A stretch of DNA of 64,000 bases, from assembly GCA_030527105.1 (NCBI GenBank), contig JAUNBK010000001.1:1-64000 (forward strand), in the 5' to 3' direction. Source of the stretch: Planctomycetia bacterium (GTDB taxonomy: Bacteria > Planctomycetota > Planctomycetia > Pirellulales > Thermoguttaceae). Positions 9,960 to 28,254 of this stretch are shown in pieces; positions within the stretch are counted from its first letter, which is position 1, and every line of letters starts with the position of its first letter. The notes under the pieces were generated by a model. That model was not told the origin of the DNA and ran no database searches. It was given only the letters and a program-made list of their open reading frames with translations. Made by a program: the position numbers and the translations under genes.

Positions 9960-9962
9960 CAA

Positions 9963-9993
9963 AAAAAGCCCTGATTAACTGTCAGGGCTTTTT
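9963..9993. terminator. Bidirectional intrinsic terminator
   Basis: A perfect 12-base stem AAAAAGCCCTGA / TCAGGGCTTTTT with a 7-base loop. The A and T tracts serve both strands. It separates the convergent genes ending at 9959 and 9999. Confidence 0.92.
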
Positions 9994-9998
9994 AATAG

Positions 9999-10355: not shown

Positions 10356-10370
10356 AACAATAACTCCTTT

Positions 10371-10658: not shown

Positions 10659-10670
10659 ATAACACCTCCG

Positions 10671-11690: not shown

Positions 11691-11726
11691 ATATCAATCC
11701 TTATAAAGCAGTTTAGTAATAGTGTA

Positions 11727-12470: not shown

Positions 12471-12494
12471 ATATATCTCCTATTTTAGTAAAGG

Positions 12495-12857
12495 TTAAAG
12501 TCCGTAGATGTCGTAGTACGGGTCGTGCGTTGCACTTTTTGTAGGAGCAGCACTTTTAAGCACGGTTCCTACAGAGTTGGCAGAACTACGCACAGCCTTG
12601 GTAGCTACTTTTTCCAGGAGGTGCAGAGTCGTATCATGATGTCGTAACATCTGAGCAACTTTCATGCCTTCTCCAGCACCTACAAATTGATTTGATACAA
12701 GCGCGTCCACGACATCAGGAATGATAGATTCCACTTCTGCCTGTTTAGCGTTATACTCATTACGCATATTCGCTGCTTTTTCCATACCGGCAGTTGCGTG
12801 TCCGATAAGGTCTTGCAGAATCTGAATGGTCGTATTGTTCATATTAAAGTTCTCCAT
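12495..12857 (-). CDS. Small helical phage protein
   Basis: 120 residues, mainly alpha-helical (IQILQDLIGHATAGMEKAAN and a second amphipathic helix around 65-90) with a short tail ending DPYYDIYGL. The ATG at 12857 follows a weak GGAG-like site. Just 10 bases from the acidic protein gene upstream. Probably a minor head protein; no function can be assigned. Confidence 0.65.
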   Translation of the reverse strand: MENFNMNNTTIQILQDLIGHATAGMEKAANMRNEYNAKQAEVESIIPDVVDALVSNQFVGAGEGMKVAQMLRHHDTTLHLLEKVATKAVRSSANSVGTVLKSAAPTKSATHDPYYDIYGL

Positions 12858-12867
12858 GTAAATATCA

Positions 12868-14313
12868 CTAGTTCATCAGTTCACGCAAAAAATTACGACA
12901 CTGTTTTCGCAACTTTGCGGCCTTGGCGTTTTTAGCTGGTTTCCAATTGGGGTTGTGCTGACGATAATGTCGAAGGTCACTTGCGAATTTACGTGCATAA
13001 GCCTGTTTTTCAGGAGCAGCGACCGCTTCCAGGTCTTCGGGCGTAATCTGTTCTTCTTCCAAAGTCGACGACAGCGCCTCGAGAGCTTCCTCTGTACTGG
13101 GTTCTTCGCCAGCAGGTTCAGGAGCATTTGCCATAGCCTCCTCAGCGGCGATTTCTTCGGCAACTTCCGCTACAATAGCTTCTACCTGTTCAGGCGGAAG
13201 CGTTTCCAGAATTGCTGTGGCTTCAGGATCGCCACCAGTAATATCAGAGGCCAGTTTATGGATGTAGTAGGCCAATTTCTTAGCCTGTTTTTCTTCTTCC
13301 TCAGTAGCTTGTTCTGCATCAGTGTTACTGGCTTCCTCCTCGGCAACAATTGCGGGAAGTACTTCTTGCGCGATAGCTTCAAGAACCTCTGGAGGTGCTG
13401 CCTCAAGAGCTGCCGCCAATTCGGCATCTCCCTCTGAAATATCACTGGCGATTTTACGTGTGTAAGAAGCCAACTTAGCTTCCTCTTCAGCGACCGCAGG
13501 AGCTTCTGTCTCTGCCAGAATTTCTTCAGCAAGCTCATCAACTACTTCTTCAACAAGAGCCGGATCCGACATAATAGCCTCTGCTAACGCGCTTTCCGCC
13601 TCCGCTGCGTTACCCTCTCCAGCACCTGCAAGATCAGACAACACGGCGGCATCGGCACCGTCTCCTCCTGCTGCCATTGCCAAAACTTCTGGCGGAAGTT
13701 CTGCCATACTTTCAACAGGTTCGTCATCTCCAAGACCCGTAGCCAGTTTGTATCGGCCTTTCAGAATATTCGCAGCCAGACGTTCGCCATCCGCATTGGC
13801 CTTATGTACGATAGCAGCCAGTTTCTGCTCACGAGTATATTTGCTGGTATTTGTTTGCTCGCTTGCTTGTTTAATATTGTTAATTTCCTGAATGGCCAGC
13901 GATGCCAGTTTATTAAACATCATGTAATTCTGATCGAACGTAGCTTGTTTGTACTGACTTACTTTGACAGGAGACGAAGTACCCGGGTCTTTGATATTCT
14001 GATTATAGTCTTCCTGAATCAGAGAATCCATGTCGAAAAGTTCCGTGCCAAAGTTTCCGCCATTAGCTTCCTGGTTAGAACCCGTAAGCGACTGGGCGTC
14101 AGCAGTTTCAGCGTTCACCTCAACATTAGGAGATTTTTTAATATCACGACTCATCTCGTCGTACAGTGGACCTGTGCTAGGTTCCGTCGTACCATCTCCA
14201 GACGGATCGTCGGGCATGGTGGTTGTCGTCTGGTCCGCAGTGGCACTTTTAACAGTACCGTGCTGCGAAGTAATGGCGTCCAGCATAGAAAATATAGATG
14301 CTTGTTTGAGCAT
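12868..14313 (-). CDS. Acidic repeat protein, capsid scaffold candidate
   Basis: 481 residues, strongly acidic. Residues 1-110 look disordered. About 190-450 hold related units built on 'Y-x-R/H-K-hydrophobic-A-S-D' followed by an amphipathic stretch 'PPE-x-hydrophobic-E-A-I'. Examples are YTRKIASDISEGDAELAAAL with PPEVLEAIAQEV, and YIHKLASDITGGDPEATAIL with PPEQVEAIVAEV. A fourth partial unit begins YARKFASD near the basic C-terminus (NWKPAKNAKAAKLRKQCRNF). An acidic, helical body with a basic C-terminal patch beside the capsid gene fits a scaffolding protein; this is inference. Confidence 0.55.
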   Translation of the reverse strand: MLKQASIFSMLDAITSQHGTVKSATADQTTTTMPDDPSGDGTTEPSTGPLYDEMSRDIKKSPNVEVNAETADAQSLTGSNQEANGGNFGTELFDMDSLIQEDYNQNIKDPGTSSPVKVSQYKQATFDQNYMMFNKLASLAIQEINNIKQASEQTNTSKYTREQKLAAIVHKANADGERLAANILKGRYKLATGLGDDEPVESMAELPPEVLAMAAGGDGADAAVLSDLAGAGEGNAAEAESALAEAIMSDPALVEEVVDELAEEILAETEAPAVAEEEAKLASYTRKIASDISEGDAELAAALEAAPPEVLEAIAQEVLPAIVAEEEASNTDAEQATEEEEKQAKKLAYYIHKLASDITGGDPEATAILETLPPEQVEAIVAEVAEEIAAEEAMANAPEPAGEEPSTEEALEALSSTLEEEQITPEDLEAVAAPEKQAYARKFASDLRHYRQHNPNWKPAKNAKAAKLRKQCRNFLRELMN

Positions 14314-14365
14314 AATTTTTTCCTTTATTCAAAGTTACGGTAATTATTCAACGATAGGTGTTTTG

Positions 14366-15439
14366 TCAAGATAAATAATTATTAAGTTCCTTATCTATCT
14401 TGCTACGATTTTTAATAACAGGAGTTAGCGGCTCGTCTTTTAGTTTCGTTCTAGGCAAAACATACGATGTGTCATCCATTTTGCGAAGTATTTGATAGGC
14501 TTGAAGAGCCTCATCAGCGGCTGTAACTCTATCCTTGGAAGTATTATAACCATCTCTCATACCTTTTGCAAATGACGCGGCCGCGACAGCAGTACCAGCA
14601 GCCCCTGTCCACAGGGCGGCTTGCATTAGTGTACGCCATATATCAGATGTGCCACTGCTGGAGCCTGTATGAGGTTTAAGCGCTGTGCCAGCGCCATAAC
14701 CACCAAATCCCCAACCTACAGCATTTGCTATTCCCGAAAGCACGGACGCATTTTTCTCTGTATTATCAGAGGAATAATTAGCGGTTTTTAATTTGTTATA
14801 CTCTGACATCAACTTATTCAAACTATTGGCAGCTTCTTCATATTCTTTCTTTTGCTTTTTAACTTCGCGTGACTTAGGACTTGCAGAGCGATTCTTCATA
14901 ATATTACCGGTTAAGATCGATCCTCCGTGTTGTCCAGCGTAAAAAGCAGCCAATGCAGCAGGGACAGTGGCAGCGTATAGCCAGGGTGTTAAGTTTGATT
15001 TGGATTCAGGTTTTGGCGTATCTGGTGGCGTTGCGTTGCCAGATGATGCCATATACCAGCCGGCTACAGCAGGTACAGCAGTGGTAAGAAGTAATTTGCC
15101 ACCTTGTATAACCCAAGGCCATACAGCTTGTTTTGTATGCACATCAGATGTCTTTACCTGTTTCTTGCTTACATCTTTCGCTTCATTGACAGGAGCGCCG
15201 ATAAATGTATTTGTAATAGGAATATCAGCTCGTGTGTAGGTATCTTTAACAGGATTTTTCTGCTCTGCAATTTCTCGAACGCGATTTATATAAACTAGAT
15301 CACCGAGTGTTTGAATTCCGTGCCAGGCAAGTCCTGCTCCGCCGGCAGTCAGTGTCAAAGCACCAAGAGCTTCCAGCCACCCAGCTGTTTTAGGAGAGTG
15401 CTGTGAGCGATTGTCGTAAATATTGTAGTATTCTTGCAT
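14366..15439 (-). CDS. Gly/Ala-rich membrane-active phage protein
   Basis: 357 residues with several Ala/Gly-rich hydrophobic segments: about 18-42 (WLEALGALTLTAGGAGLAW), 105-130, 150-170 and 245-300. They alternate with a charged coiled-coil stretch near 190-220 (KKQKKEYEEAANSLNKLMSE). No cleavable signal peptide. The glycine-zipper-like pattern resembles virion proteins that insert into membranes during DNA delivery. A second protein of this type is encoded at 39575-40324. Located upstream of the scaffold candidate in the head operon. Confidence 0.55.
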   Translation of the reverse strand: MQEYYNIYDNRSQHSPKTAGWLEALGALTLTAGGAGLAWHGIQTLGDLVYINRVREIAEQKNPVKDTYTRADIPITNTFIGAPVNEAKDVSKKQVKTSDVHTKQAVWPWVIQGGKLLLTTAVPAVAGWYMASSGNATPPDTPKPESKSNLTPWLYAATVPAALAAFYAGQHGGSILTGNIMKNRSASPKSREVKKQKKEYEEAANSLNKLMSEYNKLKTANYSSDNTEKNASVLSGIANAVGWGFGGYGAGTALKPHTGSSSGTSDIWRTLMQAALWTGAAGTAVAAASFAKGMRDGYNTSKDRVTAADEALQAYQILRKMDDTSYVLPRTKLKDEPLTPVIKNRSKIDKELNNYLS

Positions 15440-15459
15440 ACGTTAAATCTCCTATAATG

Positions 15460-15789
15460 TCATGGAGTGTGCTTAACAAGTTCGCGGTATTGCTGCAACC
15501 ATTCCAGCCATATTTCTGGATAACCGCTGTCAGTCCAGTGATAGTTTTCTTTCAATAGTTGATACCACCCATCACATATTCTTTGTTTAACGAGACAGTA
15601 TAACTCCATATCGTGTTTGTTCTCCAGCTTAAATAAAGAGCAACGATACTCGGACACCAACCTGGAGTTCTGTCTTGAGTAGGTATCCACAGTTGACGTT
15701 TTACTGATTACAGGTATGGAACCTGTATCCACGAACCATTGTAGTTGTGGTTTATTAACAGACAATTCATCAAATTCTGGATACTTCAT
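15460..15789 (-). CDS. Small phage protein, unknown
   Basis: 109 residues, soluble, rich in Trp and Tyr towards the C-terminus (WYQLLKENYHWTDSGYPEIW). Two bases separate its start from the gene upstream, so translation is probably coupled. No family recognised. Confidence 0.6.
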   Translation of the reverse strand: MKYPEFDELSVNKPQLQWFVDTGSIPVISKTSTVDTYSRQNSRLVSEYRCSLFKLENKHDMELYCLVKQRICDGWYQLLKENYHWTDSGYPEIWLEWLQQYRELVKHTP

Positions 15790-15791
15790 GA

Positions 15792-16109
15792 TTAAATAAA
15801 GGGCGACCTTACAGCTTTTGCGGCACGATCAGTCTCTTGCTCTAGTTTGTTTTGCATAATGCGGATACGTCTATTGATTAGATCTGTTTCTCGTTTCAAA
15901 TAGGCGGCATACTCATCCTCAGTCATATTATTAAATAGTGCGTCCTCCGCATCTTCCCGATCAGTAGTTCCGGTACTGAGACGACCAAAAGTGTCTCCGA
16001 TATTGTTACCAATAGCTCGACCTGCCGCGTAAGGCGCATTAACTATAGAGGATAGATTGGAATCATTCCAGGCAGCGTATTTGCGAATAAGTTTATTAAT
16101 GTTTGTCAT
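15792..16109 (-). CDS. Small helical phage protein
   Basis: 105 residues. The N-terminal half is Gly/Ala/Asn-rich (APYAAGRAIGNNIGDTFGRL) and the C-terminal half is a charged helix (about 60-100). The start overlaps the upstream stop by four bases (ATGA), indicating coupled translation. Function unknown; a minor virion protein is likely from position. Confidence 0.6.
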   Translation of the reverse strand: MTNINKLIRKYAAWNDSNLSSIVNAPYAAGRAIGNNIGDTFGRLSTGTTDREDAEDALFNNMTEDEYAAYLKRETDLINRRIRIMQNKLEQETDRAAKAVRSPFI

Positions 16110-16465
16110 TTCAAAATCAATCCCTTTCCAACACCATTACAGGATTTATGTGAGCGTTTGAATTCATCCGAAAGCTCTGCAAGTACTTTCGGATTGGTAG
16201 GGTCTCCCTGGTTAATAGCGTCTTTGAGTACTTTGTGCATAACCTCTAGCCAGTTATCAAGGTTTTGGCAAAATTCCTTGGTAAACGTATCTTTATGACT
16301 TTTGAAGGTATTTGTCATGGAAGTAAAATCGTCAATACGACGTACCCATTCCGGTACAGGGATAAGTCTTACAGAGTTCAAATCCTCATCTTTATTAACA
16401 TCAGCAACAGCAATGCCACCATTACGAGCGGCCATTTCAAGATGTTTATAACGATAGTGTTGCAT
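16106..16465 (-). CDS. Small phage protein, unknown
   Basis: 119 residues, mixed alpha/beta N-terminus (YRYKHLEMAARNGGIAVADV) followed by helices. Overlaps the next gene by four bases. ATG 16465 has GAGAGGG upstream. Possibly a head-tail connector component from its place between capsid and connector-like small genes, but there is no motif to prove it. Confidence 0.6.
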   Translation of the reverse strand: MQHYRYKHLEMAARNGGIAVADVNKDEDLNSVRLIPVPEWVRRIDDFTSMTNTFKSHKDTFTKEFCQNLDNWLEVMHKVLKDAINQGDPTNPKVLAELSDEFKRSHKSCNGVGKGLILK

Positions 16466-16475
16466 AAAACCCTCT

Positions 16476-16781
16476 CTAAAAGGTTATTCTCTTTGTTCTT
16501 CCGTTGGCATCTTTACTGAATATCGTGACATAATCAGTATGCAATGCCTTTTTTAATTTGATTTTATTTTCAGACGACATAGCACATATAGCTTGTCGTG
16601 TTTTCTCCAGTACAGAGATTACCCCAGGAGATCGATTTCTCCTACATTTGCAACCTTTTGTGTTGCTGGCTGCTGTCGTGTATTCCTTGTAGTAATTGGA
16701 AAATACAGGAAACTCCGCCCATAACTCACGATTAGACAGTAAATTACGAACCGTTATATCGTCCAACTTAAGGGTTGTCAT
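16476..16781 (-). CDS. Small basic phage protein
   Basis: 101 residues with a basic centre containing GCKCRRNRSPG. Starts by a four-base overlap with the upstream gene. Ends with TIFSKDANGRTKRITF. No recognised family. Confidence 0.6.
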   Translation of the reverse strand: MTTLKLDDITVRNLLSNRELWAEFPVFSNYYKEYTTAASNTKGCKCRRNRSPGVISVLEKTRQAICAMSSENKIKLKKALHTDYVTIFSKDANGRTKRITF

Positions 16782-17179
16782 TTCAGCACCGCCTCTACAG
16801 AGTGTTCGGAAGTACCTACAAGAGTAGTATACTCCGCAATATTATCTATTAAAAATTGAATATCATCCTCTATGTCGTTGCAGCATTTATTGGCTATAGA
16901 CATACAGGGTACTAAAATATCCAAATAATCTTTTCTTACAAAAGCACCTCCGTCTGTCTCAGGTATATCCACCAGGTCTGTAGCGCTTGCAATGTGATCG
17001 AACTGGTAGGAATCTCCTTTTTGGCTATAAACAAAAATAGCGGATGGAATAACAGCTTCTGTTGTTGTAGAGCCTTCTATCGTATCTACTCCCGTACACT
17101 TATAGGCGATACGTACTGCTCTTGTAGTATCTTTCCATGGACTGACGGCTTTTTTGAAATGAAGGCGTAATGTTGTCAT
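16778..17179 (-). CDS. Putative head-tail connector-region protein
   Basis: 133 residues, beta-rich first half and an acidic C-terminal helix. The sizes and order of this gene and the next (133 and 179 residues, directly overlapping) resemble the neck or tail-terminator genes of other tailed phages. That is positional inference only. Contains an adjacent Cys pair (ANKCCNDIEDD). Confidence 0.5.
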   Translation of the reverse strand: MTTLRLHFKKAVSPWKDTTRAVRIAYKCTGVDTIEGSTTTEAVIPSAIFVYSQKGDSYQFDHIASATDLVDIPETDGGAFVRKDYLDILVPCMSIANKCCNDIEDDIQFLIDNIAEYTTLVGTSEHSVEAVLK

Positions 17180-17718
17180 TATTCCGACCTGTTGTTCATG
17201 ACTGTGGTGACATAGGCATGTGTATCTGTAACGGCAGAGCCGTTTTTATAATGCAGCACCACATATATGGTAGTTTGGGCTGTGCTGTAATGTCCTTTTT
17301 CACTTGCTGTGATTTCGTAAGGGGCTTCCTTGAACTCGGTTAAACCTGCGCCAGACTCTCGAATAGAGAACGGGATAGGCCACGGAAGTCTATCTTGATC
17401 CCAGAGACAGGGGCGACCTGTAATGCAGAAAGCTCCAGGATAACCTGTAGTGTAGGCAATAGGCCATTGCGGGTCTCCAAGAGCTTTTGTATTCCACGGA
17501 ATAGCCGGATCTATGGCTGTGGTTACAAATTCATGTGCTGCCCGAAGATTTGAGAATGCGTACACCGTCAGCTTTGGATCGGAAGTACACGCAGTTGTAT
17601 GAGATACCTGAATATCATACAATGAACTTCTGCTTGCAGACGGAACAGGTAGGATTCCTGTCTTGCTCCCTTCTGCTGTGTCGGACAATTCTACGATTCT
17701 TCGATTGAGTACAAACAT
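17179..17718 (-). CDS. Putative neck or connector protein
   Basis: 179 residues, beta-rich, soluble, ATG 17718 after AAGGA. It shares one base with the next gene's start. First gene of the leftward head block; only 33 bases separate it from the divergent gene at 17752, so its promoter must overlap that gene. Family not recognised. Confidence 0.55.
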   Translation of the reverse strand: MFVLNRRIVELSDTAEGSKTGILPVPSASRSSLYDIQVSHTTACTSDPKLTVYAFSNLRAAHEFVTTAIDPAIPWNTKALGDPQWPIAYTTGYPGAFCITGRPCLWDQDRLPWPIPFSIRESGAGLTEFKEAPYEITASEKGHYSTAQTTIYVVLHYKNGSAVTDTHAYVTTVMNNRSE

Positions 17719-17751
17719 TTTTTAATCCTTTTAATTAAGTTACAGATTATT

Positions 17752-18210
17752 ATGCCATTATTACCTTTTAGCTCCAAATACACAAATATCGATTGGTGTG
17801 TGTTTTCTGGTGTACAGCCGAATACTTCTTCTTTATTAGAACCCTCGGTGATACAGGGAGGTCTGTGTACGGGCATTCAAAAACTTGTACAGCGATGGCT
17901 TATAAGATTAATGACTATCAAAGGCTCTATGCCCTTTGCTCAAGAGAGAGGGTGTGGTTTTATAAGTGAGATCAGTAAAGTACAGACAGAATCCGCAGTT
18001 CGTATAGCTTACCTGTTTGCACAAATGGAAATAGAACCCCAATTACTGGCAGAGGAGACAGAGGATATGCCTGATGATGAGCGGTTTTTGTCTTCTGAAT
18101 TACTTGGTGTATCGCGGTTGCGAGGTGCTTGTTCTTTAAGTGTAAAATTAACAAGTCGTGCAGGCGAGTCCAGAGAAGTACTTTTACCTATTTACGAGAC
18201 AGGACGTTAA
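17752..18210 (+). CDS. gp25-like baseplate wedge candidate
   Basis: 152 residues. The segment GIQKLVQRWLIRLMTIKGS then MPFAQERGCGF, followed by a helical stretch and a C-terminal beta unit (ACSLSVKLTSRAG), follows the pattern of the GPW/gp25 baseplate family, in which 'L-x-T-x-x-G-x-x-P-x-x-x-x-x-G' marks the core. The resemblance is moderate. The ATG at 17752 has almost no Shine-Dalgarno sequence, unusual here. Followed two bases later by a baseplate-like gene. Confidence 0.5.
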   Translation: MPLLPFSSKYTNIDWCVFSGVQPNTSSLLEPSVIQGGLCTGIQKLVQRWLIRLMTIKGSMPFAQERGCGFISEISKVQTESAVRIAYLFAQMEIEPQLLAEETEDMPDDERFLSSELLGVSRLRGACSLSVKLTSRAGESREVLLPIYETGR

Positions 18211-18211
18211 A

Positions 18212-18757
18212 ATGATATTCAGCGATTCCGATTATGTTGTGGAACCTGCCAACATTCAGGTTATACACTGTGTCAATACTGTTAATATTGCGAATATGCC
18301 GCGACAGATAGTGCCGCCGCCAGTCGGTGTAACGTCTGACGATTATGGCGAAGTGGTAGACTTTGTAGATAGCTATGCCATGATAAACAAAGAAGGTCTG
18401 CAAGGCGATATTGTATTAGAGGCAGGATATAATTGTGACATAGTTTTTGAAGATACTGTAAAAGTATCCGCCGTGCCTCAGGAAGGGTATAAACCGGCAG
18501 AAGTACCGGTTACACAAGAGGAGGAAGACTTATTGGCGAAAGGCCAGTATCTTTCCAGAGGATTGAAGTGTCATCAGGTCGTCTCTAATATAAATGGTAT
18601 TTATACTTCCGCTATTCCTCTTGTGGCAGGAAGTGGAATTTCTATAGACAGTAATTCCGAGGCAAATACGGTATTGATAAGTCTTGCTCCTATCAGCGAA
18701 AGTAAAGGGTGTGATTTGCCAGAGTGTGTTAAATCTTTGCCTGCAAGTAAAAGTTAA
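18212..18757 (+). CDS. Phage baseplate/fibre-type protein
   Basis: 181 residues from ATG 18212, one base after the previous stop, with AGGA upstream. It shares motifs with the 312-residue protein at 47314-48252: GDIVLEAG near residue 74, then a Cys, 'S-x-I-N-G-x' (SNINGIYTS), a glycine turn (AGSGISI) and a terminal Cys pair (GCDLPEC). The two are therefore paralogues over about 120 residues. A structural tail role is likely from context. Confidence 0.6.
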   Translation: MIFSDSDYVVEPANIQVIHCVNTVNIANMPRQIVPPPVGVTSDDYGEVVDFVDSYAMINKEGLQGDIVLEAGYNCDIVFEDTVKVSAVPQEGYKPAEVPVTQEEEDLLAKGQYLSRGLKCHQVVSNINGIYTSAIPLVAGSGISIDSNSEANTVLISLAPISESKGCDLPECVKSLPASKS

Positions 18758-18800
18758 TGCGATTGTGTAGAAGAACTTCGTAATAATAGATAGCTACTTT

Positions 18801-18884
18801 TATATCACCGCAGAGTGCTTAAACTGCTTTTCTGTGACGCTAAGTGGTTGTATAATAAAGACATCCGTATATAACCGCAGAGTG
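18801..18884. repeat. Direct repeat pair in a convergent gap
   Basis: TATATCACCGCAGAGTG (18801-18817) and TATATAACCGCAGAGTG (18868-18884) differ at one base and are 67 bases apart. AAACTGCT (18821-18828) and AGCAGTTT (18894-18901) also form an inverted repeat. They lie between convergent genes, so they may act in termination or regulation. Confidence 0.6.
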
Positions 18885-18889
18885 ATTGA

Positions 18890-21223
18890 TCAGAGCAGTT
18901 TTCGCTTATCAGGCGGTGCGATAGCCCCTGTTAAACCAAAATCACTATCCCCGAAAGCCAACGCGGGGACGTAACTGGAGCCTTCGGTGTAGCTGGTGCC
19001 GCCTCTTCGGGCAGACTCTAACACGCTGGATTGTTGGTATCCGCCTAGCATTTTCGTACCCCAGTCCGGGTCGTTAGCCACGTGAGCCATTCCGCGAACC
19101 ATTTCCGGCTCAAAGGGTGGCGGGTCTTTGTGCGCATAAACATTTTTCACACCGTAGGCTTCCAGTTCTTTAACGACAGAGGGTCGTAATTTGGTTCCTA
19201 CCGTGTAATGCAACACCGGTTTTTCCAGGTATCGATTGGTCAGTTGCTTGGGCGCCCCCTGCATGAAACCTTTACGCGGTTCCCAGTTGTGCGTTACCAT
19301 GGCGTAGGGGAGTACGTCATCAGGTACATAGTCGCCTAATTCATCGGTAAGACGTACATAGCTGATAAGACCTCGGCTGAGTGCTTCCAGATTACGTCGA
19401 TGTACGGATTGCCCCGCGTTTCTTAGAGCGGCTTGAAATTGATTGACAAAAGCTCTTCGGCCTTCGCCAATTCCTTTATACTTCACTACCATGGCAGGAT
19501 TGGGAATGCCGTCGGAAATTACATCCCCGGCTTCTACAGTATCACCAGGTTTGACAAGCAGATCAATGTCCGTACCTTGTTGTTTTCCTACATAGTGACG
19601 CACTCCGTTAATATAAACATACTTTCCACCCTGTGGAGCGTCTTCAATTTTACCAATAGTTCCATCTTCCGTAGCATGAACCGCACCATGCTTGAATTTT
19701 TGAGGTACTTGGATCATCTGATTCAGATATTCAAAACCAGAGATGGTTTTTCCTGCTCCGACAACACCTCCCGTGTGTTTGGAATTGGAACAAATCATAC
19801 CGTTGGCGAGCACAAATAAATGGTCTGGATGATCTACCTCAATGTCCATTGTTTCCAGTTCGCCAACATACATCTGGTCTTGCCGTGTCAGAGCTTTTTG
19901 TAGTTTATCATCATGTAAATACAGAAGGTTATCAGACAGTAAACCTATGGGAATCTGCTTATTGGTATTGTCAAGTACTCCAAGGAATCTATGTTCCAAG
20001 GTAGAAGCTACTGTAATATAACTTCCTTCCGCTATTTTATAGGTGGTAGAGTAACAAGATTGTATGCCATTATGGAAAATGTTGACAACCTCTACCGGGA
20101 ACGTACCGCCCTCTGTGTTGGAGCCAAGTACATAATCCCCTATAGCAATATCTCTGAGTTTTTTGACAGTATTATCTGCCATTCGGACAGTCGTGTTTGG
20201 GTGCAGGCAGGAGATAGAACTTTGTGTGATAGGTTCCGTTACTGCTTGTACCGCGGATATGCCTACAAAATCTCCGATAGCCGGACGTGTTCCCGATTCC
20301 CGCAAACCAGCATCGTAAGAATAAATACCACCGTCTGTCGGTCCGCCTACGGTTACGGACCTGACCAGAATTCTTTTATGTCCTTTGGAATCCAGGTCTT
20401 GCAGTATTTTCGGTGTGAGTAACGTGTTTCTCGGATAACCACCTACAGGGTGTGCCAGATACGCACCCTCATTACCCTCATCCATAGTATCCGCCGGGTA
20501 GCCTCTTGGGTTTGTCTCGTCGTAAGGGTCTGGATCGTCGTCCGCAGTGACAACTTCCCTGTGAGCTATTTGCACCAATTGTTTGGCAAGAAAACCCGCG
20601 TCGGCAGTCGCTTTCTGCAAGTCAACACCGCCTTTGCGCGCACCGTAGGCACCTGCAATGTACTGCACAGGAGTCAAGCCCTTTCCATAACCGCGTGTAA
20701 TAGGTACAGGCACAGGACGGCCTTCCGGGTCTTCGTATAACAAGTCCGCGCCAACGATAGAGGTGTAGGGAACCACTTTATTTCCCAGGGTACCGGTGGC
20801 CTGATGATACAGAGGTGATTCTTTGCGCTCTTTGAGAATCTCTTGCTTGATAATAGGTTGGTATTTAAGGGTGTTTTGAACGATCTCTTTCTGTACTCTG
20901 GGGTCGTCGCTCAGAACTCTCTTTTGATACCATTTAGCGAGAATCTTCTCTGTTTCATCTTCAATACGGTTTCGGATAGCTTCCATCGCTTTGATTTCCG
21001 CCGCGTCGGATACCGAGAAAGACTGTCCGCCTGTAAGGTAAGCAGCCTCCGCGCCGAATTTAAGGATTTTGTGAGAAATTTCCTTAAATTTGTCAGGATG
21101 TTTCCGTGCCAACTCTGTCAAAACTTTGGATGTTGTTTTAGAGTCCCATACACGATAATCATCTCTCATATCATCCGGCAACATCTCGTTAAGTATCACA
21201 GAGCCTACCGTTGTTTCCGTCAC
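18890..21223 (-). CDS. RNA polymerase beta'-like protein with an in-frame mini-intein
   Basis: 777 residues, about 635 after splicing. It matches the C-terminal half of bacterial beta' (RpoC): residues 175-225 (ITRGYGKGLTPVQYIAGAYG, then ARKGG, then TADAGFLAKQLVQIA) correspond to the bridge-helix region. VRSVTVGGPTDGG (288-300) and GDFVGISAVQAVTEPITQ (317-334) lead into the trigger loop, which resumes as SKHTGG (481-486). GEGRRAFVNQFQAALRNAG (586-604) corresponds to the conserved VNEVQKVYR region, and LGGYQQSSVLESARRGG (726-742) to the late-beta' segment. The zinc-binding Cys of beta' are lost, and the NADFDGD catalytic barrel is not in this protein. It overlaps the portal gene by four bases. 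Likely one subunit of a split phage polymerase or a virion derivative. Confidence 0.88.
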   Translation of the reverse strand: MTETTVGSVILNEMLPDDMRDDYRVWDSKTTSKVLTELARKHPDKFKEISHKILKFGAEAAYLTGGQSFSVSDAAEIKAMEAIRNRIEDETEKILAKWYQKRVLSDDPRVQKEIVQNTLKYQPIIKQEILKERKESPLYHQATGTLGNKVVPYTSIVGADLLYEDPEGRPVPVPITRGYGKGLTPVQYIAGAYGARKGGVDLQKATADAGFLAKQLVQIAHREVVTADDDPDPYDETNPRGYPADTMDEGNEGAYLAHPVGGYPRNTLLTPKILQDLDSKGHKRILVRSVTVGGPTDGGIYSYDAGLRESGTRPAIGDFVGISAVQAVTEPITQSSISCLHPNTTVRMADNTVKKLRDIAIGDYVLGSNTEGGTFPVEVVNIFHNGIQSCYSTTYKIAEGSYITVASTLEHRFLGVLDNTNKQIPIGLLSDNLLYLHDDKLQKALTRQDQMYVGELETMDIEVDHPDHLFVLANGMICSNSKHTGGVVGAGKTISGFEYLNQMIQVPQKFKHGAVHATEDGTIGKIEDAPQGGKYVYINGVRHYVGKQQGTDIDLLVKPGDTVEAGDVISDGIPNPAMVVKYKGIGEGRRAFVNQFQAALRNAGQSVHRRNLEALSRGLISYVRLTDELGDYVPDDVLPYAMVTHNWEPRKGFMQGAPKQLTNRYLEKPVLHYTVGTKLRPSVVKELEAYGVKNVYAHKDPPPFEPEMVRGMAHVANDPDWGTKMLGGYQQSSVLESARRGGTSYTEGSSYVPALAFGDSDFGLTGAIAPPDKRKLL
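19784..20209 (-). other. Mini-intein (Hint domain, no endonuclease) in the beta'-like trigger loop
   Basis: 142 residues (339-480 of the host protein). Block A begins with Cys1 in CLHPNTTVRMADNTVKKLRD and GDYVLG. Block B carries T-x-x-H in STLEHRF. Blocks F and G are near VDHPDHLFVLANGMICSN, with the terminal Asn followed by Ser as +1 residue. The penultimate residue is Ser rather than the usual His. No DOD or HNH endonuclease is inserted. Removing it joins ITQSSIS to SKHTGG, the same length as the uninterrupted bacterial trigger-loop motif, which supports accurate splicing. Confidence 0.9.
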
Positions 21224-23205
21224 ATCCCACCTCCGCCACCGAATTGCTGTTGTAAAACCATGTCACGTCCCTGGGACGCTGCGTTACGTCGGATTTCTTC
21301 GATCATATCTTTCACGAGAGGGTGAAGTTCCGGTGCTTGTTTCTCAAGCTCGATTAGATGGCTGGCGGTATTTCCCTGCATGAATAATTGCGCCAGTGTC
21401 CGCGCTTTCTGGTACATCTTTGGCAAAGGATCGCCTGGCTGATAGCCAGTTTGTGCGATCCAAACAGACACAGGGTCTTGTCCAGGCATAATACCAGGAG
21501 CCATAGGAGGAGCAGCCCCTGCTTGCATGGGCATACCTTGTGCTGGCATACCTTGTGACATATCCGCTCCTCCAGCCATAGGCATACCGCCAGCCATAGG
21601 CATACCGCCAGCGCCTTGTTGTAGTGCCGCCATTGGACCTCCGGGAGCCGCGTCTGATAGTTGTTGTGTAGTTTCCATTAACTCTTGCAATTTGTTTTGT
21701 TGTTCCACCTCGTCCAATTGTTCTTCCATACGTCGTCGGACCTCTTCTTTGTAATTGACTCCGATAGATTCCAAGGCTGTTGTATTGGACATGACTGGCG
21801 AACCAAGCAACTGCAATTTCTGTACTTGTTGATTCAGGTCGTCGATAAATTTAACTGCAATATATTTCGCATTGACAGGCTCCCAACCCAGTAACGCACT
21901 TACACGTTTAACTACAAAAGCCAAAAATTTATCGTAGGAGCTTACAAGTCTTGACCAATAAGAAGAGAACAGTCGCAGCGCTACAGGAGCGACTTGCAGG
22001 GACAGACTTCCTTTGTATAACTCTACAGGAATACCCGCAGAGGTTAAAAAGGTGTCTAAGGTATAGTCCAACAAATCTCTGGGCAATAACTGTGTAGCGT
22101 CACCGCCAAAATACTGATACTGTAACGCACAAGGTGATATATGCCAACTATTTGGATCTTTCCTGCGATTCTCCAGCATAGCTTTCACATGCTCACGAAA
22201 AGAAGCGCCTTCCACCTTGAACACAGGGTCTACAGCCGTTGTATTTCCTGTCGGTGGTGACAATACACGCAAAGGAGACAACGCCTCTTTTGTAATCATT
22301 TCCACATGCAAGTGCAGACTCTGGTGCAACCAGGCATATCGGAAATTGGCAATTGTTTCCGGTATACCCCATCCTTCTGAATTTATACCGGATAGCGTAG
22401 ATGTTTTCAGGTGGAGAATGTTATCTTTGTCAAGCTGTATATATCCGCCATCTCTGGCTGCCTCTAAGACTTCTTGCGGTGCTGTCTCCAACACATGGGG
22501 GGTTCCTTGTTCCAGTAAAGAAATGTAATCTTTGGGCAGTCGCCACAGAATAACGTTCTTTCCTGTGAAGTCGTCATGCAAAATCTCAATGTCGTGAACA
22601 TTCCAGCGTTTGATGTACACATCCGACATGCTCTTGGAGTCGTAATCAATTACATTCCATTCGTCAGAGTAGCCACAATAAGGACATGTTGCTGTAAATT
22701 TCCAATTTTTGAACTTAAATTGGTAGTTAGAGGATTTATCCAGTATCTGAGTAATGGGTGCTTGATGAGAGCAGTTACTTCCGTCTTTATTCTTTCCACG
22801 ACACTGCAACCATCTCTCAAAGGAGATATACACACTGGCAAAAGCATTCCCGTATGTAAGTAAGTCCATACCGATATTAAGCGTTTCGTCATTTATCGAC
22901 AGATAAGCGCTTGACAAAATACTGAGATACCGTTGTCGCGTATCTTTTCCGCTCAGAATCACATCATCAGGACCGTCTACAATCTCTGGCTCTGTGATAA
23001 AAAAAGAGCAAATACGCGATAATGCAGCACGGTACACCCCTGTAACCGATACGATATACTCGCTCCAATCTAATGCCTCATCCATTGTGGTAGGCATGTG
23101 CATGGAGGCCAGGTCTACATACGGATTATGATAGTTACTGTTACCGTTTTGTGCTATTTTCGGTGTTATACGATTTTCCCATAGACGGATTGCTGATCTT
23201 TGCAT
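21220..23205 (-). CDS. Portal protein (probable)
   Basis: 661 residues. Features fit phage portals: an N-terminal region with an Asp-rich helix, YLSINDETLNIGMDLLTYGN (about 103-122) and a central beta wing. Then comes a helical crown with TLDTFLTSAGIPVELYKGSL near 400, and a long C-terminal helical tail with a Met/Gly/Pro-rich low-complexity segment (about 530-590). An unusual insertion carries four Cys (QCRGKNKDGSNC and CPYCGY, about 140-195), which look like a zinc ribbon. It would form the dodecameric DNA entry ring. It sits between the Met-rich small genes and the beta'-like gene, with which it is translationally coupled. Confidence 0.7.
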   Translation of the reverse strand: MQRSAIRLWENRITPKIAQNGNSNYHNPYVDLASMHMPTTMDEALDWSEYIVSVTGVYRAALSRICSFFITEPEIVDGPDDVILSGKDTRQRYLSILSSAYLSINDETLNIGMDLLTYGNAFASVYISFERWLQCRGKNKDGSNCSHQAPITQILDKSSNYQFKFKNWKFTATCPYCGYSDEWNVIDYDSKSMSDVYIKRWNVHDIEILHDDFTGKNVILWRLPKDYISLLEQGTPHVLETAPQEVLEAARDGGYIQLDKDNILHLKTSTLSGINSEGWGIPETIANFRYAWLHQSLHLHVEMITKEALSPLRVLSPPTGNTTAVDPVFKVEGASFREHVKAMLENRRKDPNSWHISPCALQYQYFGGDATQLLPRDLLDYTLDTFLTSAGIPVELYKGSLSLQVAPVALRLFSSYWSRLVSSYDKFLAFVVKRVSALLGWEPVNAKYIAVKFIDDLNQQVQKLQLLGSPVMSNTTALESIGVNYKEEVRRRMEEQLDEVEQQNKLQELMETTQQLSDAAPGGPMAALQQGAGGMPMAGGMPMAGGADMSQGMPAQGMPMQAGAAPPMAPGIMPGQDPVSVWIAQTGYQPGDPLPKMYQKARTLAQLFMQGNTASHLIELEKQAPELHPLVKDMIEEIRRNAASQGRDMVLQQQFGGGGGM

Positions 23206-23314
23206 GGTTAATAGCTTTCTTTGTACGCTCCGCGAGATTACTTACAATGTCATCTTCCGATTTTGTAACATTGTTCTCCTCTGACAGCTTTTTGAACACG
23301 CCGGTCTTTTGCAT
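23141..23314 (-). CDS. Small overlapping protein upstream of the portal gene
   Basis: 57 residues, MQKTGVFKKLSEENNVTKSE onward, ending NTENSTKR. The ATG at 23314 has AGGAG seven bases upstream. Its last 65 bases overlap the portal coding start (23205) in another frame. Hydrophilic, probably helical. An overlap this long may couple its translation to the portal. Function unknown. Confidence 0.6.
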   Translation of the reverse strand: MQKTGVFKKLSEENNVTKSEDDIVSNLAERTKKAINHAKISNPSMGKSYNTENSTKR

Positions 23315-23333
23315 AGTGTTTCTCCTGACATTT

Positions 23334-23351
23334 TTAGTTATTAATAACTAA
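23334..23351. promoter_or_regulatory. Perfect 18-base palindrome
   Basis: TTAGTTATTAATAACTAA, located between the stop of the Met-rich gene and the ribosome site of the small portal-upstream gene. The same palindrome, extended to 20 bases, recurs at 53400-53419; an imperfect copy is at 63838-63855. Probably a protein-binding site. Confidence 0.6.
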
Positions 23352-23353
23352 TT

Positions 23354-23827
23354 TTAGTAACGATTCAGCACACTACCCCAAGGGTACAACGCCTCGCCAT
23401 TTTGTGGTTGTGTAATGTGTTTGTAGTTGGATGTCTTCATTCCTTCTGTGGGAAGAGGACCACCTCCAGGATCGGATTCACTCATATCTCCTGCCTTTGG
23501 TTTGATAAGCGCATCTACTGGGGCGCTTAAGTTAAGCGCGTTCATAATAGCACCGAGCATAACGTTAATGTCGTACAATCTACTCTCAATTTGTGCAAGC
23601 ATCTCTTCTGGACGCTGCTTTTTGGGCTTATCTGCGGTAGGTGCTGTCGGAGGCATTCCCATCATAGACGGATCCGTAGGTGCCGTCATAGGAGGTGCCA
23701 TGGGTGTTGCTCCGCCCATCATAGAGGGATCCATTGGAGGCATACCTCCCATCATAGAGGGGTCCGTCGGAGGCACAGGCACAGCAGCTTGTTTATTATA
23801 GGGATAACGATAGTTTGTACGATACAT
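23354..23827 (-). CDS. Met/Pro-rich repeat phage protein
   Basis: 157 residues from ATG 23827 (AAGGAG upstream); an earlier start would add an implausible hydrophobic leader. Residues 18-60 contain tandem units DPSMMGG, MPPM and DPSMMGGATPMAPPM. Residues 70-105 form a helix (RPEEMLAQIESRLYDINVML). The Met/Gly/Pro style matches the low-complexity tail of the adjacent portal protein. First gene of the portal block, divergent from the tail block. Role unknown; possibly a minor head protein. Confidence 0.6.
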   Translation of the reverse strand: MYRTNYRYPYNKQAAVPVPPTDPSMMGGMPPMDPSMMGGATPMAPPMTAPTDPSMMGMPPTAPTADKPKKQRPEEMLAQIESRLYDINVMLGAIMNALNLSAPVDALIKPKAGDMSESDPGGGPLPTEGMKTSNYKHITQPQNGEALYPWGSVLNRY

Positions 23828-23921
23828 GAAATTCTCCTTATCAATGAGTTTGAGATAGTTATTAAGAAAGTATAATAGGCATAATAAGAATGTGCAAATT
23901 AACTTTAACAGGGAGAAAAGT

Positions 23922-24236
23922 ATGGCACATACAGATTGGAATGTCATTAACTCGTATAGGGATTATCCTTTCTGCCCTACAGATAACAGTAATTTACCTA
24001 GTGATGCTATTCTGGATTGTAAATTTTTTATTATAAATCCAGAGATATTACCACCAAAAGTATGGTTGCATTCCTATCTAAAGGAAGAATCCAGAAGAAT
24101 CTTCGTATTTAAGAATACAGACAATCAGGAAATGACATTTTATGTTCCAGATTCTGAGGAGTGGCAATGTATCTGGAATACGAACGATCCCGCGTGGTAT
24201 GGTTTTGTAGTGTTTGGAAAAGCGGAGAATAGCTGA
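23922..24236 (+). CDS. YPF-motif baseplate/tail protein, small
   Basis: 104 residues from ATG 23922 (GGGAG upstream). It opens with a motif shared by two other proteins here: SYRDYPFCPTD followed by LPSDAILDCKFFI. The protein at 46608-47306 has NTKYPFEDTATL followed by LPETLFLDGTFY, and the one at 47314-48252 has RSYPLAE followed by LPDDFLLAL. This shared N-terminal module suggests that all three dock in the same way on the baseplate. It is the first gene of the rightward tail block. A TATAAT lies at 23871-23876. Confidence 0.6.
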   Translation: MAHTDWNVINSYRDYPFCPTDNSNLPSDAILDCKFFIINPEILPPKVWLHSYLKEESRRIFVFKNTDNQEMTFYVPDSEEWQCIWNTNDPAWYGFVVFGKAENS

Positions 24237-24237
24237 C

Positions 24238-26832
24238 ATGGGTTTGAATGATATGTTCTCAGATGCGTTTAAGCGTCTTAATAAAATAGAACAGGATGTT
24301 TCCTATACAACAGACGCATCCGTGTCTGATCCGATGAATATACGAACCAGCCAGATAGCGAATACTGGCAATTCTGGAGTAAATGTCTATGTCGGAACTA
24401 TCACGGATACGTGCCCGTCGATGCACGCATACCGTGTATCTGTGCCCGGAGCAGGTATCTATGTATGCGGTGTGTGCAGTTTTGCTGGAGGCGACACTCG
24501 CGTTAGTGCAGGGTACTCTCCAGGAGACCAGGTTATTATCATTAACTTGGCGGCAGATCAGGGTATTATACTTGCTAAAATGCCAGATGTCGCAGAGTAC
24601 GGTTCCGCAGAGCCTAGAACATGGGTAGGTTTGTCGGATAGTTATAAAGCGGACGCACTACAGAAATCCTATACAACATCATCAGGAGATAAAGTATATT
24701 CTCCATCCTATACTTCAGGGTCGCCTGTAAATAATACAGACGTAGGTGAGTTTATTGCAGGAGGCATACAAGGAACGCAAATTTTTGTAGACCCTTATAT
24801 GGCTTATATGCGATCTACGGATATGACAGGTGTATGGGCGTTTGTAGAAGATGCCATGTTACGTGTAGGAGGGCATAATTATCAACATATCACAGCTGGA
24901 AGTTATTCAGAGCAATTCAATGACAATGGGGAATGGATAAGCTATACAGGCTATGCGGCTAATTCGTGGGAACCTTACGGTTACTACACAAAACCTTCTA
25001 AAGTTATCAAGACAGAAGATACGTGGTATAATTCCGAAGAACCTTCTGCTTTCTGGGAGCCGGAGAATAAAGAATTATTGCCGTGGTATCGTTATGCGGA
25101 GTATAAAGGTTATCCAGGTATGCAAAGTTATGTATTTGCGGCTCCTGAAAGTAAAAATGAACGAACAGGCAAAGAAATGGATATGCTTGGCTTGTCGCAA
25201 GTAACACAGTTAGCTGATGGGTTTGTAGGTGTATCCTCTGCCAAGGGTATTTCATTAACAAAACGGTCTGTATTTCCTGCAATACAGAAGCTGAAATCGC
25301 CAGATGATCCTGAGGGCGACACGGCAGATAATTACGATTTTGAGCATTCCGGCTTCAAACACAAAGGAGAGCCGGATTATACAGCGACGGATACCGCCAA
25401 AGTAATGCAGTCCACAATGGGTGTATTGGATTACAGTACTTACACTTCTAACTATAAATCACTATATCCGTTTTTGTATCACAGTAAAGATTATGCGGTT
25501 GTTGAGAATTCTGAGATACCTGTAGCGCCTGTCAATTGGAGTAAATGTGTACAACAGTTACAATCAAAGCAGTACGCAGATCCGCCAGAAACTTACACTC
25601 GTGATATTGATGGGGAAGAACATAAGTTTTATATTGCTGAGGCGGGTTTTCATTTATTGCCGGATGGTGGTGTCATGATTCATGATGGCTATGGCGCTGC
25701 CATAACTATGTCTGGTGGGAATATAACTCTGACTGCTCCCGGAGATATTTCCATCAGACCCGGCAGGACTGCTGATATTTGGGCTGGGAAAGATATTATT
25801 CTTAAATCTAAAAAAGCTGTGGATGTCTCTTCCACGGAGTCTTCTGTACGTATCAAAGCGGAAAGAAACCTGGAAATGCTCGGAGGAAACTGTGGGTCTG
25901 GAGCAGGTGTGGTTATTGAGAGTAAGAGTCACGGAGATTACGATTTTGCCCCTGGAGGGGATAAAGTTACTACGAATGGTATTGTTCTAAAATCCGAAAA
26001 CGGTGTTGTTGCCGCTCTTGGCGGTACTGTATATGTAAACGCCAGTAAACGAGGATCAGGTATTTTGTTGGATTCTGGCAATGGCACTCGACCTATTTAT
26101 ACAGCGTCTAACATAAAGCAGGATTATGTGAAAAGTCGTCATGATCTTGTTTTTGGTGATGTGTCTAATGGTCGTGTATATGCGACACAGACTTCTACAC
26201 GGTACGAGTCAACGTTTCCAGGTAATATTTCATGTAATGGTACAACGACAACAAAAGGTTCTTTGTATGTGGATGGTTATATTATGGGAGGGAAGCACAT
26301 TGCTACTAAACAGGCAGAATCTAACCCTTATGTGAGTCCTTTGAAAGACAAAGCGGCTACTGCATTCGATACGGTCGTTCGCGACTCTGTAGAAAGAATT
26401 ACAAAAGACAGACCTAATGAGGTGAAAGATACTCATTCTTCCAATATAAAACCCTCTTTTTATGCTGCAAAAAAAATCGGAAACGCAGATACTATAGAGC
26501 AGACAGAGTTTAGTTTTCGACGCGATGATGAATTAGACTTGACGGATTACAGAGTATATGCCAGTTTTTGGCAAACGGTAAGTCCTGACGCTGGAACAGT
26601 ATGGAAAGAAAAGCAGGTTAAAACGTATTCTGGTGAGGGAACGTATCCTTATCCAGGTAAAAAATATACAGAGGATGAGGATTGTTTTGTAATACAACCT
26701 CTTAAATTATATAAAAATGGTATAGCGGTCGATAGGTGGGAGCAGAACTCTCCATCAGAAGTCTATTCCGAACCGGAGTATGCTGAGCCGCAAAGTAAGA
26801 AACTGGAGCAATATCGTATTACAGGAGCATGA
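24238..26832 (+). CDS. Tail spike / baseplate central needle protein (gp5/VgrG-like)
   Basis: 864 residues from ATG 24238, directly after the previous stop. N-terminal helix (1-30), then an OB-fold-like beta domain (about 45-125, with VYVGTITDTCPSMHAYRVSV). After a long middle region comes a beta-helix-like stretch (about 475-640), with repeats such as DGGVMIHDGYGAAITMSGG, NITLTAPGDISIRP and ADIWAGKDIILKSKKAVDVS. This is the pattern of T4 gp5-C and VgrG spikes. The C-terminal 200 residues are mixed. No lysozyme motif is evident. It would form the membrane-piercing tip of the contractile tail. Confidence 0.72.
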   Translation: MGLNDMFSDAFKRLNKIEQDVSYTTDASVSDPMNIRTSQIANTGNSGVNVYVGTITDTCPSMHAYRVSVPGAGIYVCGVCSFAGGDTRVSAGYSPGDQVIIINLAADQGIILAKMPDVAEYGSAEPRTWVGLSDSYKADALQKSYTTSSGDKVYSPSYTSGSPVNNTDVGEFIAGGIQGTQIFVDPYMAYMRSTDMTGVWAFVEDAMLRVGGHNYQHITAGSYSEQFNDNGEWISYTGYAANSWEPYGYYTKPSKVIKTEDTWYNSEEPSAFWEPENKELLPWYRYAEYKGYPGMQSYVFAAPESKNERTGKEMDMLGLSQVTQLADGFVGVSSAKGISLTKRSVFPAIQKLKSPDDPEGDTADNYDFEHSGFKHKGEPDYTATDTAKVMQSTMGVLDYSTYTSNYKSLYPFLYHSKDYAVVENSEIPVAPVNWSKCVQQLQSKQYADPPETYTRDIDGEEHKFYIAEAGFHLLPDGGVMIHDGYGAAITMSGGNITLTAPGDISIRPGRTADIWAGKDIILKSKKAVDVSSTESSVRIKAERNLEMLGGNCGSGAGVVIESKSHGDYDFAPGGDKVTTNGIVLKSENGVVAALGGTVYVNASKRGSGILLDSGNGTRPIYTASNIKQDYVKSRHDLVFGDVSNGRVYATQTSTRYESTFPGNISCNGTTTTKGSLYVDGYIMGGKHIATKQAESNPYVSPLKDKAATAFDTVVRDSVERITKDRPNEVKDTHSSNIKPSFYAAKKIGNADTIEQTEFSFRRDDELDLTDYRVYASFWQTVSPDAGTVWKEKQVKTYSGEGTYPYPGKKYTEDEDCFVIQPLKLYKNGIAVDRWEQNSPSEVYSEPEYAEPQSKKLEQYRITGA

Positions 26833-26833
26833 T

Positions 26834-27913
26834 ATGGAAAATGTAGATTATGATGAGTTGGATTTGAGTATTCTGGAATGTAACGTACATCTGAATAGTG
26901 AACACCCGGAAAACGTACCTCAAGTGGTAATGCCTGGCACACTGGATTTGCTGAAATCTGTCGGATGGGAAGAAGGGCAGAAAATACCTGGAGGATTGTC
27001 GAAGTATTTGTCTGCTGTACTGGAGATTCTTGGATTGTCTGCAACAAAGAAAAACATCAAACTGGTTATGTCCAATAAAACGGTGCAACATTCACTTAGA
27101 ACCAAGTTGCAAAATATGAGGGATTTGCAAAACATAGATAATATAGCTAGACAAGCTGCTTCTGATATTACCAATATTGACCCATCTAATATGACCGATG
27201 CGCAGGAGGAGATATTTAATGTTGCCATGTCTAAAGTATTGCAGGACACGCATAAAGATTTGACATCTATAGATATAAAACCTGTAACGCCGGATAAGAA
27301 GGCGGTAAGCGAAGAACAATCAACAGAACCAGAGCAAGAGGAATCCAGCAAAGAATCTGTAGATGTGTTATCGCATCACTATTGTCCATGTTGCCACTGG
27401 AACTTGGATAAGGAATATCCTGAGGATGCGATAACAGAGAGTGATGAGAAGGCGTATCTGGCCTATATTCTCGGAGGGAGTACGTTTTATAAGACTTATT
27501 CTATATGGAATGACGCTGCAAGGGTTACTTACCATGTTTTAACGACAGAGGAAGAAGAGCAGATACAGGACCAGATAACTCGTGATTATCACAGTGGCAA
27601 GTGTAATCTGGTTTACCAGATGCACGCACTGGAGTCAAAATATAAAACAGCTTTGTCGGTTGATAGTGTTGTATTTACACAGGGAAGCATAACTTCTCCC
27701 AGGTTGCCTAGGTGGAATAGTAGTATTATTCAACCAGAGGAAGGACAGACTCGTATAGAGGCGTTCTATACACAAGGATTTTGTAAAACGTTTCCTGCAA
27801 AAACGTTACAAGATCAGCTTATCACTAAGTGGAGGGTATTTCAAAACCAGCTTACGTTGCTGGAGCATAGGCTGTTCTCTAAGGATTTTTGGGAAGGGCT
27901 GACCATGCAATGA
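26834..27913 (+). CDS. Zinc-ribbon tail/baseplate assembly protein
   Basis: 359 residues from ATG 26834 (CAGGAG upstream). It is mostly helical with a Glu/Ser-rich linker (about 165-190) and a zinc-ribbon-like HHYCPCCHWNLD near 192-204. It lies between the spike and the tape-measure candidate, where T4-like phages encode gp26/gp51-type baseplate hub assembly factors with similar Cys motifs and others encode tail chaperones. Either role would fit; I prefer hub assembly. Confidence 0.5.
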   Translation: MENVDYDELDLSILECNVHLNSEHPENVPQVVMPGTLDLLKSVGWEEGQKIPGGLSKYLSAVLEILGLSATKKNIKLVMSNKTVQHSLRTKLQNMRDLQNIDNIARQAASDITNIDPSNMTDAQEEIFNVAMSKVLQDTHKDLTSIDIKPVTPDKKAVSEEQSTEPEQEESSKESVDVLSHHYCPCCHWNLDKEYPEDAITESDEKAYLAYILGGSTFYKTYSIWNDAARVTYHVLTTEEEEQIQDQITRDYHSGKCNLVYQMHALESKYKTALSVDSVVFTQGSITSPRLPRWNSSIIQPEEGQTRIEAFYTQGFCKTFPAKTLQDQLITKWRVFQNQLTLLEHRLFSKDFWEGLTMQ

Positions 27914-28254
27914 TGATACGGTCTGCCGCGTTACGCGGTCTGGATTACAGTCATGGCAGCCCTAAAACACGTCAATACTGGGACAGGATTCATCTAATTA
28001 CCAATGATTTGCAATCCCTGAATTGCAGTATTGTAACTTTTTTTGATGCGATGTATTTAATAGGAACAGTTGATCCTTCCGACAGTCAAGAAATCCTACG
28101 CCAGAAAAGAGATAAATTAACAGATTATTTGCATTGTATAGTAGACAAGTCTGCCTCTGAGACACCAAGTGGTGTAGGCGATCCGACTATACAACGACTT
28201 ATTAAAATTCTGGATGAGATTAAAAGTACACATGAGATAGATAATAATGAGTAG
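27910..28254 (+). CDS. Small phage tail protein, possible assembly chaperone
   Basis: 114 residues from ATG 27910, which overlaps the previous stop (ATGATG); GGAAGGG lies just upstream. Helical and soluble, with a Cys-bearing helix (DYLHCIVDKSASETPS). Directly before, and overlapping by eight bases, the tape-measure candidate. Position suggests a tail assembly chaperone. Family not recognised. Confidence 0.5.
   Translation: MMIRSAALRGLDYSHGSPKTRQYWDRIHLITNDLQSLNCSIVTFFDAMYLIGTVDPSDSQEILRQKRDKLTDYLHCIVDKSASETPSGVGDPTIQRLIKILDEIKSTHEIDNNE

Follow-up and report, generated by a model that had tools for sequence, protein, structure and literature searches.

A predicted mini-intein that splits the trigger loop of a phage-encoded RNA polymerase beta' subunit, and related inteins at nearby positions in that enzyme

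Why should an intein that cannot spread by itself persist in a gene, and does it control the protein that it interrupts? These questions were raised by a stretch of 64,000 nucleotides from a Planctomycetia bacterium (assembly GCA_030527105.1, contig JAUNBK010000001.1, positions 1 to 64,000; hereafter, the window), in which a reading of the sequence alone had pointed to an endonuclease-free intein and had proposed that its unusual ending may signal regulated splicing. We therefore analyzed the insert, the protein that carries it, its relatives in other phages, and the history of the surrounding locus.

The insert resides in an open reading frame of 777 codons (18890..21223, minus strand), a precursor of intein plus host protein. 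Removal of the intein would leave 635 residues, the C-terminal subunit of a phage RNA polymerase beta' (beta'C). The exteins matched PF04998 at 3.9e-15, above the gathering score, and beta' chains in the PDB (best match 2.6e-25); they also matched TIGR02386 at 9e-42, far below the full-length cut-off of that model, as expected of a fragment. Homology extended across the Rpb1 domain 5 region, with both the bridge helix and the trigger loop recognisable, and phage homologues were found. Searched against viral contigs as a single sequence, the full precursor returned nothing, whereas alignment queries or the intein alone succeeded. By these sequence matches, the host protein is the C-terminal part of the beta' subunit of a phage multi-subunit RNA polymerase. 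The bridge helix region (GLTPVQYIAGAYGARKGGVDLQKATADAGFLAKQL, 20576..20680, minus strand) is uninterrupted in the window, and it is the trigger loop that carries the intein. The sequence-only reading had recognised neither the beta' host nor this position, and it is the position that makes the locus interesting.

The trigger loop is cut as TQSSIS/SKHTGG (slashes mark intein boundaries). The last six codons of the N-extein, TQSSIS (20210..20227, minus strand), form the N-terminal side of the loop, and the first six of the C-extein, SKHTGG (19766..19783, minus strand), include the Ser that would serve as the +1 nucleophile. Only this Ser and a Lys lie between the insertion point and the His that aligns with the catalytic His of the trigger loop (19775-19777, minus strand). 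The site falls in the 89th percentile of conservation along the spliced subunit. We could make the comparison with related phages lacking the insert that had been proposed from the sequence: a phage beta'C with exteins 69% identical to ours (L091) has an exact empty site, TQAAIS/SKHSGG, where the DNA runs from ATTTCC straight to TCAAAACAC, with no codon extra or missing. Since this empty site matches codon for codon, the boundaries of the intein are fixed by comparison as well as by motif. The alignment of the site took in 19 uninterrupted or other phage beta'C sequences, and uninterrupted trigger loops read TQAAISSKHSGG in L091, TQGQLSAKHSGG in L092, and TQMILGTKH in Salmonella phage Arash.

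Translation, profile, predicted fold, and the empty site together support a mini-intein of 426 bp (19784-20209, minus strand), exactly where it had been placed before, encoding 142 residues (CLHPNT...GMICSN) with no stop codon. On the same strand, we located block A (CLHPNTTVRMAD, 20174..20209), which includes Cys1; the T-x-x-H of block B, corresponding to Thr70 and His73 (19991..20002); block F, from Asp122 to His130 (19820..19846), absent from the earlier description; and the C-terminal Cys140-Ser141-Asn142 (19784..19792), of which the Ser and Asn are conserved across the family and the Cys is variable. Cys1, Thr70, His73, Asp122, His130, Ser141, and Asn142 are identical across four aligned family members, and Asn142 is followed by the +1 Ser. 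All class 1 catalytic positions are thus present except the penultimate His, which is replaced by Ser141, as in the Npu DnaE intein. This replacement does not bar membership in class 1, because the penultimate His is an assisting residue and functional inteins lacking it exist (PMC4031507, PMC2664965). A Pfam search of the 142 residues returned no endonuclease match, LAGLIDADG or other, in agreement with the earlier view that this copy cannot spread by itself.

As a single sequence, the intein matched the Pfam Hint models only below their cut-offs, and a phmmer search with it reached Npu DnaE at an E value of 0.011. A profile built from the window intein and three relatives matched DnaE inteins in the PDB over most of the profile's length, with E values of 6.2e-11 and 1.5e-10. 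An AlphaFold model computed from six sequences (pLDDT 81, pTM 0.75) aligned with Npu DnaE over 124 residues, with a Z score of 15.5 and an rmsd of 2.6; this model leans on known inteins, because two of its six input rows are DnaE-type phage inteins. A three-sequence model (pLDDT 47) was too poor and was left out. Taken with Cys1, the Thr/His pair, Asn142 followed by Ser+1, and the precise in-frame insertion, the predicted HINT fold identifies the insert as a class 1 intein, and the first description of it as an endonuclease-free intein with Cys1, T-x-x-H, and a Ser-Asn end was borne out by translation, family alignment, and fold.

Counting identical contigs once, we found five inteins in the beta'C subunit, and the viral relatives found are 36-48% identical. 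The intein of L042 occupies the same codon as that of the window (TQAGLK/C...STSN/SKH) and is about 44% identical to it. The intein of L088 lies one codon upstream of the window site (TQAGL/C...IVSN/SSKH), and that of L093 lies three codons downstream, past the His (ALNFKH/C...IVSN/SGKK). The L093 intein carries a LAGLIDADG_3 domain (2.4e-14), and its length of 389 residues was our yardstick for the 142 residues of the window copy. The fifth, in L120 (IMGVR_UViG_3300028829_006090, 5338-7671), is a mini-intein of 146 residues that interrupts the bridge helix (SRKGY/C...IVSN/SDVQ) and leaves the trigger loop uninterrupted. These sequences delineate a small intein family with two homes in phage beta'C, the trigger loop and the bridge helix, and its differing insertion codons could be separate insertions or the result of sliding.

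This family bears directly on the proposal of regulated splicing. The Ser-Asn end, which had been taken as unusual, is found in all five polymerase inteins and occurs naturally in DnaE inteins, among them Npu DnaE, which splices robustly (PMC2664965). The penultimate Ser was consequently dropped as an argument for special control. Similarly, the Cys of the terminal MICSN, which had been suggested as a possible contributor, is present in the window only; its position is taken by Thr in L042 and by Val in L088, L093, and L120, so that Cys140 is not a conserved redox switch. The argument for a control switch from these two residues is weak, and nothing that we found in the sequences points to conditional splicing.

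The same phages harbor further candidates in their other polymerase genes. All three trigger-loop-intein phages that we checked (G060, G065, and G067) have intein-like inserts in the gene that encodes beta and the N-terminal part of beta' (beta/beta'N; L071:7707-13334, L109:678-6704, and L108, respectively), and in the phages of L091 and L092, which are intein-free, the beta/beta'N frame is unbroken, at 1461 and 1507 residues. In G060 and G067 (L071:7707-15526 and L108:1008-9999), this gene stops about 20-60 codons past the catalytic NADFDGD motif, and the polymerase picks up again after ...LSN/T in a second open reading frame, which has a LAGLIDADG_3 match. This arrangement could represent a naturally split intein whose N-terminal piece is short and lies at the catalytic aspartates, or it may reflect a frameshift or another element. 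Separately, L034:2559-9731 encodes a single-chain phage RNA polymerase of 2391 residues that joins beta and beta', with an intein-like insert after RHGNKGIIT (CHDQWT...SGN/CIIPDHEMP). Phage G064, whose beta'C has no intein, has another intein-bearing gene (L114:17227-19818), an 864-residue frame with Hint_2 and LAGLIDADG_3 matches.

To what extent was the window intein inherited vertically, as had been suggested to explain its persistence? In a maximum-likelihood tree of the exteins, the window pairs with L091, and L093 pairs with L096, both with a support of 100/100; each pair consists of one carrier and one empty member. Carriers and non-carriers are interspersed, and the branches with good support require the no-intein label to change at least three times. 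The change between L093 and L096, which has no insert, is fairly recent, because the two are 85% identical; that a LAGLIDADG-bearing member has such a close sister without the insert indicates that gain and loss are at work. Between the window and L042, the intein (about 44% identical) and the exteins (37-45%, 38.5% overall) have diverged alike, which makes a recent transfer between them unlikely. The lower G+C content of the insert (41% vs 49%) is a mild hint that it arrived later than strict descent would imply. The suggestion of vertical inheritance thus stands as far as the similar divergence from L042 goes, but not in strict form, given the empty site of L091, the changes in the tree, and the L093/L096 pair. 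The difference between the window and L091 may reflect gain in the former or loss in the latter, and the carrier pattern, as read from these sequences, fits gain and loss in a homing cycle rather than demonstrated strict vertical inheritance. Recent spread into unrelated genes, which had been named as the contrary scenario, was not seen: among 397 genomes of the class, the sole other match was a HINT domain in an RHS-like protein, and no second copy was found in the organism's own genome. Terminase inteins returned by tblastn were distant matches (E 0.01 to 0.3) and were rejected.

We then examined the locus that carries the gene. On its contig (C100, 115,958 bp), the genes to the left of 9.0 kb and to the right of 72.6 kb belong to the host and have homologues in other genomes of its genus. 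A direct repeat of 14 bp (TTCTCTTCCAGAAA) is found at 9016-9029 and 72009-72022; when the two flanks were shuffled 500 times, no common word of that length turned up. Between these flanks, most phage genes match those of the 187.7-kb phage G064, the source of L091, in largely colinear order. Regions 6-101 kb and 135-172 kb of G064 have almost no counterpart here, and the absent part includes the beta/beta'N gene (88.7-93.0 kb), a family A DNA polymerase, helicases, a RecA-like protein, and ribonucleotide reductase. The rightmost phage gene is devoid of its N-terminal part. We interpret the locus, on this gene content, as a prophage reduced by deletion. The relic spans roughly 63 kb, against roughly 190 kb for the original phage; its part inside the window is 9016..64000, and its end is near contig position 72,022. 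The locus may instead be a mis-joined contig. Directly upstream of beta'C is a portal protein gene (21220..23205, minus strand), 45% identical to that of G064, which in tblastn matched the portals of phages Arash, D69, D148, and D181 at 3e-49 to 7e-50. A gene for a sigma-70-like factor (34206..34931, plus strand; Sigma70_r3 at 5.1e-7, phrog_351) is 54% identical to its G064 counterpart.

The partner of the subunit is the missing piece: in the 93.9% complete assembly, we detected no phage beta/beta'N gene, only the host rpoB and rpoC, whereas the gene is present in the relatives. A working phage polymerase is therefore doubtful here; the subunit may be partnerless, the intein perhaps freed from selection for splicing, and the consequence of splicing in this organism may be nil. 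Genes for the portal, major head, sheath, baseplate, and sigma-like factor survive in the relic, but replication genes and beta/beta'N are absent; from this gene set, it is possibly a domesticated particle. At about 53.4-67.6 kb of the contig, accessory genes stand in place of G064-like phage genes. They include a macro domain, two AAA ATPases (AAA_21 matches), and an IrrE-like metallopeptidase gene that adjoins a small gene (window 53421-63814 and L036:235-3451); their G+C content is low (35-40%), and they look like cargo.

Taken together, these results make it very probable that the insert is a class 1 mini-intein, an endonuclease-free form of the homing cycle in the trigger loop of a phage beta'C, most likely able to excise itself after translation. 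In class 1 chemistry, Cys1 starts the reaction with the assistance of block B, the +1 residue takes the N-extein, and the Asn cyclises (PMC4031507). Here, an acyl shift at Cys1, aided by Thr70 and His73 of block B, would be followed by transfer of the N-extein to Ser+1 and by cyclisation of Asn142, with Asp122 and His130 of block F present where the penultimate His is missing; this Asp/His pair could, to some extent, stand in for it. TQSSIS would then be joined to SKHTGG, in a ligated product that contains TQSSISSKHTGG. Because the unspliced subunit would carry the insert within its trigger loop, next to the catalytic His, it is expected to be inactive; excision would restore a normal loop, so that polymerase activity would depend on splicing. 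On the simplest account, suggested by the family, the window copy presumably once had an endonuclease: the intein would have arrived with it, lost it, and then persisted, as imprecise removal would destroy the active-site loop. Persistence of this kind is known for conserved sites, where only precise deletion is tolerated (PMC2814812).

Other explanations account for the insert less well. A conditional switch, in which redox state, temperature, or the state of infection times the activation of the phage polymerase, draws on the site itself, since splicing beside a catalytic His would amount to an on-switch, and on the persistence of the insert in several phage lineages without an endonuclease. 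Against it, the penultimate Ser is ordinary in the family and in DnaE inteins, the suspected Cys is not conserved, sister phages live without the intein, and the organism's assembly yielded no partner gene; we consider such a switch improbable. We are equally doubtful of its broader form, in which an intein lineage of large phages adapted to the trigger loop and bridge helix, moved between neighbouring codons, and made splicing a post-translational on-switch. If true, a newly made polymerase would stay inactive until a set time or condition.

The state of the relic, which lacks replication genes and beta/beta'N and whose rightmost phage gene is incomplete, could instead mean that both intein and subunit are dead, in a reading frame merely not yet broken. 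However, all 777 codons are open, every splicing residue is kept, and many structural genes of the relic are likewise intact and align with G064, which makes this account highly improbable. Nor is fold alone specific to inteins: a BIL or Hedgehog-like domain, which would cleave but not ligate, has the HINT fold as well, and the model scored nearly as well against Hedgehog (Z 14.1) and BIL2 (Z 14.0) as against DnaE (15.5). Yet the residue after Asn142 is Ser+1, the sequence of a conserved enzyme runs on through both exteins, and the empty site agrees with the window codon by codon. BIL domains are, moreover, found in non-conserved regions of variable proteins (PMC2814812), unlike the conserved trigger loop occupied here, and we regard this last explanation as extremely improbable.

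The closest structural counterparts are the DnaE inteins (Npu, 2KEQ/4KL5; Synechocystis, 1ZD7; and a halophilic one, 7QIL), which share the fold of the window intein (Z 13-15.5) and its lack of an endonuclease, at only 22-25% identity; the Npu and halophilic inteins also share its Ser-Asn end. Their host is the alpha subunit of DNA polymerase III, and the Npu and Synechocystis inteins are naturally split. The host protein, in turn, has the same split beta' architecture as that of Salmonella phage Arash (gp206, gp216) and Vibrio phage D69, in which a polypeptide of ~1525 residues (beta plus N-terminal beta') is complemented by a beta'C of ~606 residues. Portal and beta/beta'N genes are close by in both phages; in Arash they adjoin, and a sigma factor gene is also present. 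Their beta'C subunits have no intein and are 23-25% identical to the window exteins.

Inteins are known from archaeal polymerase subunits A' and A'', from eukaryotic and viral second-largest subunits, and from chloroplast rpoB (PMC1635734, PMC5784728). The archaeal A'' inteins (Mja rPol A'', Nph rPol A'') interrupt the homologous part of the largest subunit but have a cellular host, whereas the host here is a phage (PMC1635734). When 84,980 genomes were scanned for PGTQ-x-TMR with a Cys immediately following, there was a single out-of-context match, upstream of panB, which we dismissed as chance and which left no candidate for a cellular intein at the window's codon. Judged by this motif scan rather than by the archaeal site itself, the A'' inteins are unlikely to occupy the identical codon; they may occupy a nearby site in the trigger loop. 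The inteins of RPA2, RPB2, RPC2, and rpoB (eukaryotic, chloroplast, and large-virus) likewise lie at conserved sites near the polymerase active center, but in another subunit and at other sites, and many carry an endonuclease (PMC1635734, PMC5784728). The titles and abstracts of the open-access literature that we searched held no description of phage beta' inteins. The position in the trigger loop and bridge helix, with relatives at neighbouring sites of a phage polymerase, looks new to us, and the intein chemistry looks ordinary. To the known polymerase inteins, our analysis adds a family that interrupts two elements of phage multi-subunit polymerases, the trigger loop and the bridge helix. 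This family offers an empty site that matches exactly, a member with an endonuclease domain, and four insertion codons within one gene family, and hence a natural test bed for changes of intein site, endonuclease loss, and splicing as a gate at an enzyme's active site.
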